A stretch of 64,000 nucleotides of DNA, from the NCBI RefSeq assembly GCF_024300645.1, contig NZ_CP101291.1:1116001-1180000 (forward strand), written 5' to 3'. Position 1 is the stretch's first letter. Every line of letters begins with the position of its first letter. Shown here piece after piece: positions 60,876 to 61,461 of this stretch. A program made the position numbers and the translations under genes. This stretch comes from Alteromonas sp. LMIT006. Its GTDB lineage: Bacteria > Pseudomonadota > Gammaproteobacteria > Enterobacterales > Alteromonadaceae. The notes under the pieces are model-generated. The model had not been told where the DNA came from. It ran no database searches and was given only the letters and a program-made list of their open reading frames with translations.

Positions 60876-60941
60876 TTTGGCGCTATGAGAGCATTTCCAG
60901 TAATGTGTTGTGTCAATGCACAAATAAAAAGGTACTATATT

Positions 60942-61109
60942 TTATCCTCTGTCAGCCTTTTTCGTTTTGATATAAAAATGATTAAGAACAACGATGAGTA
61001 TTCCCACACTAACAACCAATATGACTTCTTCAAAGGTATTGAGTTTTAGTAGGTGAGAAATGAGCAGACTTGCTAATAAGCCCAAAAAAAATACCATCCA
61101 TTTATTCAT
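60942..61109 (-). CDS. Small 55-residue two-helix membrane protein
   Basis: This short frame begins at ATG 61109 with AGGA about 12 nt upstream and ends in TAA at 60942. It encodes two hydrophobic helices (about 5-22 and 28-44) joined by a short loop and followed by a basic tail (KTKKADRG), the pattern of a small inner-membrane protein. It lies 65 nt downstream of the double-glycine-leader peptide gene on the same strand. Size, topology and position resemble small bacteriocin immunity proteins, but I recognise no family. Confidence 0.6.
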   Translation of the reverse strand: MNKWMVFFLGLLASLLISHLLKLNTFEEVILVVSVGILIVVLNHFYIKTKKADRG

Positions 61110-61174
61110 TTTAATTTCTTTTCCTGTTTAAAAATATATGGCCAGAAAGTTATCTACCATAAATGAGATAATAC

Positions 61175-61381
61175 TTAATATAATAGGTTAAACTGTTCTC
61201 GATTGTTCAAAAAATATTGGTTGCTTGCAGAATGGTCTTGTTCCGAGAACGCAATGACATGGTTTTTAAAGCTATCAATTGAAACATCCAAAACTTTACC
61301 TGCCCCATAGCCTACTAAAAAACTGAGTAAAGCATTGCCGCCCGCGACAGTCTGAGTTTCTGTATTTGACAAAATTTTCAT
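61175..61381 (-). CDS. Double-glycine-leader peptide precursor (bacteriocin-like)
   Basis: This 68-residue peptide opens with MKILSNTETQTVAGG. That is the form of a double-glycine leader (conserved Leu, Glu and hydrophobic positions before GG) cleaved by C39 peptidase ABC exporters. Cleavage after Gly15 would release a 53-residue peptide with a glycine-rich hydrophobic part (FLVGYGAGKVLDV, residues 21-33, containing a GxxxG motif) and a polar C-terminal half. No C39 transporter gene is in the window. No strong ribosome binding site is seen. A -10-like TATGAT lies at 61415-61420. Bacteriocin function is inference. Confidence 0.65.
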   Translation of the reverse strand: MKILSNTETQTVAGGNALLSFLVGYGAGKVLDVSIDSFKNHVIAFSEQDHSASNQYFLNNREQFNLLY

Positions 61382-61414
61382 TGTTTTAACTATTGGTTCG
61401 TTTAAGGGAAAACA

Positions 61415-61442
61415 ATCATATCTAAAGTTGAAATAAAAAGAA
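61415..61442 (-). promoter_or_regulatory. Candidate promoter of the double-glycine peptide gene
   Basis: On the minus strand TTCTTT (61437-61442) and TATGAT (61415-61420) are 16 nt apart. The implied leader is about 27 nt. The -35 match is weak. Confidence 0.3.
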
Positions 61443-61461
61443 CCTGTGAGAAAGTTCAGTT

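Follow-up and report, generated by a model that had tools for sequence, protein, structure and literature searches.

The minus strand from position 61381 to 60942 of a 64,000-nucleotide stretch of the Alteromonas sp. LMIT006 chromosome (hereafter the window) probably carries a class II microcin-like bacteriocin and immunity cassette that is exported in trans, where killing, export and immunity are the roles we infer for its parts. Computation reveals a double-glycine (GG) leader on the precursor, P0001, homologues of the peptide, a linked gene for a small membrane protein, a single C39 exporter and four such cassettes in the one genome. In the mechanism that we propose, the precursor would be recognised by the C39 peptidase domain of the sole such ABC transporter detected, encoded some 163 kb away, and cut after Gly15, and the resulting 53-aa peptide would be exported through a TolC-like channel with the help of a HlyD-type adaptor. 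The hydrophobic, GxxxG-containing N-terminal segment would then insert into the inner membrane of close relatives, with specificity given by the C-terminal half, while the 55-aa inner-membrane protein would protect the producer. The P0001 cassette would be one of four in the genome, three of which stand apart from the exporter and would share it. The features of the locus are collected in Table 1.

Table 1. Features of the P0001 locus, numbered from the first letter of the window.
Feature	Position	Strand	Basis
GG-leader precursor peptide gene P0001, 68 aa	61175..61381	minus	ORF, leader, homologues, chance control
Leader, residues 1-15 MKILSNTETQTVAGG, predicted cleavage after Gly15	61337..61381	minus	sequence and alignments
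Predicted mature peptide, 53 aa, hydrophobic GYGAGKVLD segment, C-terminus YFLNNREQFNLLY	61178..61336	minus	homology, composition
Shine-Dalgarno-like AGGAAAAG, 8 nt upstream of the 55-aa ORF's ATG	61118..61125	minus	read from sequence
55-aa protein with two TM helices, candidate immunity protein	60942..61109	minus	ORF list, hydrophobic segments, homologues, AlphaFold
586-bp stretch bearing the peptide/partner pair, between convergent yaaA and DUF4426 gene	60876..61461		locus comparison

P0001 (1,177,175-1,177,381 on the genome) opens with an ATG and runs for 68 codons, its translation dividing into the leader MKILSNTETQTVAGG and the core NALLSFLVGYGAGKVLDVSIDSFKNHVIAFSEQDHSASNQYFLNNREQFNLLY; the plus-strand reading of 61175-61381 holds six stops and was rejected. 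Double-glycine leaders in their standard form have Leu at -12, Glu at -8 and Val at -4, followed by Gly-Gly, and the Leu4, Glu8, Val12 and Gly14-Gly15 that the preliminary description had assigned to the 68-residue product are exact, on the minus strand. M1, E8, V12, G14 and G15 show no variation across the 4 rows of alignment A1 or the 11 of A2. Among the 1102 start-to-stop readings of 40-120 aa in the whole window, P0001 alone carries the exact leader L-x3-E-x3-[VI]-x-GG near its start, and the loose form is matched twice, by P0001 and by a second reading that starts MFGTGDPKLMAGG; 60 order-1 random windows of the same size gave means of 0.0 exact and 0.1 loose leaders. This chance control, together with homology, rules out a random ORF.

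The core, which had been described as glycine-rich and hydrophobic, proves not to be the former, with three glycines in 53 residues (GRAVY -0.08, net charge about -2), and is the latter only in its first ~16 residues, which hold GYGAG; as read from the sequence, the remainder is a polar acidic tail. This acidic, partly hydrophobic composition counts against the bacteriocin reading, as does the region before the P0001 ATG, where no clear Shine-Dalgarno sequence is visible by eye; a promoter scan found one site where shuffled sequence would give 2.5. AlphaFold models the precursor poorly (pLDDT 61.4). P0001 reaches the cut-off of no family in Pfam or NCBIfam and has no match to Bacteriocin_IIc (PF10439), a PHROG search with 11 members of the peptide family gave no match below E 0.06, and a PDB search gave no meaningful match.

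Nor is the peptide the orphan it had been taken for: an ORF of 55 aa with two hydrophobic segments, overlooked earlier, starts 65 bp downstream on the same strand as a candidate immunity gene, and the genome holds four pairs of GG peptide and membrane protein. AlphaFold models the 55-aa protein as two helices (mean pLDDT 77.7); it exceeds no Pfam cut-off and matches nothing in NCBIfam. Homologues occur in G007 (57%, broken by one in-frame stop) and G027 (35%), and relatives adjoin related peptides in G251 and G024. For the intact partners (window, G251, G024 and G027), 0-3 of 1000 pattern-preserving shuffles reach the score in all six pairs, tests that linked the window and G024 partners where BLASTP alone had left them unaligned. 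Known immunity proteins, in the portion of PMC9746304 available to us, span 51-216 aa, are encoded near the microcin and tend to reside in the inner membrane, and the 55-aa ORF looks, from its sequence, as an immunity gene would be expected to look. The G027 homologue (L100 1489-1644, 51 aa), upstream of which no GG peptide was seen, is possibly an immunity gene retained alone.

The linkage recurs elsewhere. A downstream ORF with at least two hydrophobic segments is present at 13 of 13 hand-picked loci, that of P0001 included, a set that excludes the transporter-linked loci and those of G029, G288, G426 and G464, where ORFs are present downstream. Across the GG loci of six genomes the count is 10 of 18, which we set against the linkage; the eight without a two-segment ORF include tandem GG peptides, one single-segment case, one unparsed case and the G009 relative of the 627-kb peptide discussed below. 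As controls, such an ORF follows 9 of 307 ordinary genes of at least 150 aa in 31 stretches, some of them overlapping (2 of 52 within the window).

The type of partner, moreover, tends to vary together with the peptide's C-terminal type, as the sequences of cognate pairs would be predicted to do. Peptides of the YFLNNRE type, in two genomes, are followed by two-helix partners of 53-55 aa, those of the LPYNRL type by partners of 112-128 aa with three hydrophobic segments (the one in G051 is VanZ-like, and that in G221 is divided between two ORFs, of 62 and 45 aa), those of the W[RK]EDYNG type in G243 and G173 by partners of 74 and 91 aa, and those of the GGQMN type in G017 and G264 by partners of 129 and 142 aa; a shortened relative in G367 has a partner of 69 aa, and the transporter-linked type has a CAAX/CPBP protease of 227 aa. 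The exception to the rule is G024, where another C-terminus is found with a two-helix partner, the latter requiring a start inside a longer ORF.

The closest relative of P0001 is that of G251, Glaciecola sp. XM2, Glaciecola being a member of the Alteromonadaceae. It shares 29 of 50 aligned core residues, its C-terminus is almost identical (NDYFLNNREKFNLLY in XM2, NQYFLNNREQFNLLY in P0001), and a 53-aa two-helix ORF follows it at 55 bp; conservation of leader and core in relatives, a question raised by the preliminary description, is thus present. Between the two cores dN is 0.33 and dS is saturated, a ratio that has the pattern of a coding sequence over only 50 codons, and closer pairs of related peptides give milder ratios (G184/G134, dN 0.039 and dS 0.092). 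Because the XM2 leader holds one in-frame stop, this copy may be inactive, or the assembly wrong. Beyond XM2, the exact type of P0001 was seen nowhere else, including the 98 relatives searched. In G251's genus, alignment A3 matched 2 of 13 genomes, G251 itself and, weakly, G221, whose peptide is of another type; on contigs, P0001 alone retrieved no related locus and a two-row alignment retrieved one, that of Glaciecola sp. XM2.

Further relatives are more distant. The G024 peptide matches at 41% over residues 1-56 (E 1.7e-5), and a more weakly related group ending LPYNRL is found in four genomes of G251's genus and in G051. When cores alone were shuffled, none of 2000 shuffles reached the scores of G251, G024, G221 and G243, and 1, 14 and 19 of 2000 did so for G011, G184 and G051, respectively; within the genome itself, the transporter-linked peptide is weakly related by the same measure (4 of 2000), and the two other GG peptides give no signal (1255 and 1186 of 2000). 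A single-protein search returned 24 of 98 genomes at E <= 1, mostly above E 0.03, of which only G024 is convincing and G011 (0.057) was retained for its leader and following ORF. Rows in frames of ~205-250 aa (G002, G007, G009, G028, G052 and G077) were set aside as unrelated, as were a row of the genome itself near 1,042,509, in such a frame, and the remaining rows. A family profile reached 67 of 395 genomes at E <= 0.01, with most rows covering the leader part alone, and a search of the order with a cut-off of E <= 1e-4 reached 8 of 394 genomes; G011, G134, G184, G221 and G251 each have one family-profile match. Five consecutive leader matches at G352:C1:177672-179400, the first four of them 293 bp apart, form a possible tandem array of GG peptides. 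No relative was found at E <= 1 in 72,556 plasmid and 50,697 phage records, nor any relative of P0001 in viral contigs, so that an origin as a phage or plasmid cassette is unsupported.

The genome (2,533,120 bases in one contig, 99.39% complete) has one C39 peptidase match at E <= 0.001, and it lies outside the window. The earlier statement that no transporter is nearby therefore holds for C39 transporters, and the suggestion of an exporter encoded elsewhere now has a possible candidate, about 163 kb from P0001. The match is a full PCAT of 686 aa with C39, ABC membrane and ATPase domains, at about 1,341,054-1,343,114, in a cluster with a HlyD protein (418 aa), a GG peptide (57 aa) and a CPBP protease (227 aa) whose flanking genes are presumably folD and tig. 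Residues 4-679 of the exporter align with PCAT1 (4ry2, E 1.5e-99), and its peptidase aligns with PCAT1 and with LahT (6mpz, E 4.9e-25), whose structure record names an AMS/PCAT transporter's double glycine motif protease domain. It preserves the Cys, His and Asp positions, these being the catalytic residues of such peptidases in the part of PMC9746304 that we could consult. As for the outer-membrane component, six OEP repeats exceed the cut-off in three TolC-type open frames, two in each.

Among the relatives, peptide and C39 gene lie on one contig, ~58-79 kb apart, in G011, G184, G134 and G221, and on different contigs in G024, G051, G243, G367, G251 and G264, drafts that give no distance; the G051 peptide is within 1 kb of a contig end. 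Around the relatives' C39 regions the strict leader pattern found a GG ORF in 2 of 13 (G251 and G264), and by eye there are small ORFs with degenerate GG-like leaders near C39 in G024, G243 and G367, so these three exporters are not clearly without local peptides. An ORF of 1,109-1,147 aa recurs beside relatives' C39/HlyD genes (L111-L113, L115, L116, L118, L119 and L121), starting WDVLNPP in L112, L115, L116 and L118 and WNVLKPP in L121. In G002 (L070 2007-16001) the exporter module is near an ORF that looks integrase-like by eye and is accompanied by several different GG peptides in succession; this module may be mobile and expanding.

The leader-profile search that had been suggested was run with 17 leaders and returned four places in the genome at E <= 10 and nothing else; all four were among the 17 rows of the profile, and leaders unlike them may escape it. 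They are P0001, the transporter-linked peptide and two stray peptides near 627 and 863 kb, and only one adjoins the exporter. An ORF of 55-227 aa with 2-5 hydrophobic segments comes after each of them, at a distance of -14 to 67 bp. The 627-kb peptide (L035/L133) has 59 aa and its end is overlapped by a 94-aa membrane ORF; its G009 version has 89 aa, the copy in the present genome being shorter by 30 residues internally. The 863-kb peptide (L036/L136) has two Cys, a 100-aa membrane ORF comes 6 bp after it, and its neighbours are presumably rplI-like and dnaB-like genes.

Comparison of the site itself bears on the history of the pair. The DUF4426 gene is present in 12 of 12 genomes searched, and it is adjacent to and convergent with yaaA, with both flanks readable, in G002, G004, G006, G007, G008 and G009; in G001, G003 and G005 the neighbour is different or yaaA is out of view. 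No GG ORF lies between the flanks at any of those six same-genus loci, the pair being absent in five and broken in G007. The neighbourhood earlier described as conserved is hence conserved in its flanking genes and not in the pair. G007 is the closest relative: its DUF4426 protein is 96% identical, and 94 of 107 nt ahead of the peptide are retained. Its site lacks the peptide but still carries a copy of the 55-aa ORF, interrupted by one in-frame stop. Since the broken partner and the pre-peptide region persist there, the pair probably predates the split from G007, in which the peptide was then lost, perhaps, we infer, via similar stretches in front of both genes.

The kind of system to which we assign the locus is already known. 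Class II microcins (V, L, N, PDI and S; H47, I47, M, E492 and G492) are described in the accessible portion of PMC9746304 as systems of a PCAT, a HlyD-type adaptor, TolC and a small inner-membrane immunity protein, and it is because a precursor with an adjacent small membrane protein and a PCAT/HlyD/TolC set amount to these components that we favour a microcin system. P0001 resembles them in its GG leader, short precursor and small membrane protein directly downstream, as does its genome in having one PCAT with HlyD and TolC-type proteins; it differs in having no sequence-family match and in lying about 163 kb from the exporter, as the genome does in holding four precursors, three of them off-exporter, in a host of the Alteromonadaceae, not Enterobacterales. 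The leader type is also that of Bacteriocin_IIc (PF10439) bacteriocins, whose model the three other GG peptides match below threshold (22.3 bits for the 863-kb peptide, 15.2 and 10.8, against a cut-off of 27.1) and P0001 itself does not match. The exporter and its peptidase are like PCAT1 and LahT-type transporters in aligning with 4ry2 and 6mpz, but would, judging by gene positions, process precursors encoded far away.

Other readings of the same genes have to be weighed against this one. That P0001 is a secreted signalling peptide, a pheromone sensed by two exporter-side kinases with the small membrane protein modulating sensing or export, we consider unlikely, and we keep it in view as the main rival because two histidine kinases (HATPase; one also HisKA_3) adjoin the C39 transporter at L030 9147-12540 and are kept in G009 and G007; CAAX-type proteases, the kind found in the exporter cluster, can, according to the part of PMC9298176 available, disturb quorum sensing and histidine kinases. 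In G002, however, kinases are lacking from the 16-kb stretch with peptide, CPBP protein and exporter, the ORFs beside P0001 include no evident kinase or regulator, and the existence of four peptides, of which the other three have cores weakly or undetectably similar to that of P0001, with four different partners is better explained by toxin and immunity. It is quite unlikely that the cassette is instead a decaying or inactive remnant, on its way to being lost and with its peptide not made or not exported: the loss of the peptide and the in-frame stop of its partner in G007, the stop in the XM2 leader and the lack of a clear ribosome-binding site before P0001 would all agree with decay, but both frames in the window are intact, the leader has exactly the standard residues, and the protein sequence of the core is conserved even though its synonymous sites are saturated. 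Gain and loss are in any case usual for bacteriocin cassettes, which also speaks against decay. The breaks in both nearest counterparts, in the G007 partner and the XM2 leader, count nonetheless against the cassette reading.

Very improbable, finally, is that P0001 is one half of a two-peptide bacteriocin and acts jointly with the transporter-linked 57-aa peptide. GxxxG motifs are meaningful in two-peptide bacteriocins, the alignment places GxxxG/GxxxS motifs in both peptides, and their cores are related above chance, as the 4 of 2000 shuffles indicate. Yet the transporter-linked peptide is kept without P0001 in G007, G009 and G002, five genomes (G011, G134, G184, G221 and G251) have one family-profile match each, and either peptide has a partner protein of its own.

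Predicted bacteriocins in Alteromonadaceae are not new as such, since, according to the part of PMC6361997 that was available, antiSMASH indicated bacteriocin clusters in two strains of Alteromonas stellipolaris (the data themselves are not given there), and the part of PMC9723598 at hand predicts a RiPP-like bacteriocin in one of two isolates. Among the papers listed, in their titles and the beginnings of their abstracts, we found no description of the P0001 peptide family or of its scattered arrangement, and the one paper that came up for double-glycine peptides in Alteromonas or Alteromonadales, or with marine C39 proteins, concerns no such peptide. As most genomes contain one or two microcins, in the excerpt of PMC11494933 at our disposal, four in one genome would be unusual. 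According to the portion of PMC9746304 cited above, a 79-genome screen, finished in 2003, examined only the exporter's vicinity, and the same excerpt of PMC11494933 suggests a similar restriction for future searches; being limited to exporter surroundings, such screens would miss stray cassettes like that of P0001.

It is close to an even chance that the microcin-like arrangement proposed here extends beyond this genome, such that some Alteromonadaceae combine one central C39 exporter with many stray cassettes of GG peptide and immunity protein, lodged singly between housekeeping genes and gained or lost by small indels, in which the leaders stay alike and the C-termini and partners co-diverge. 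Should the microcin-like reading be true, a single genome would contain four candidate bacteriocins, and a peptide family without a match in the profile libraries tried would become testable, peptide type against immunity type, around one exporter.
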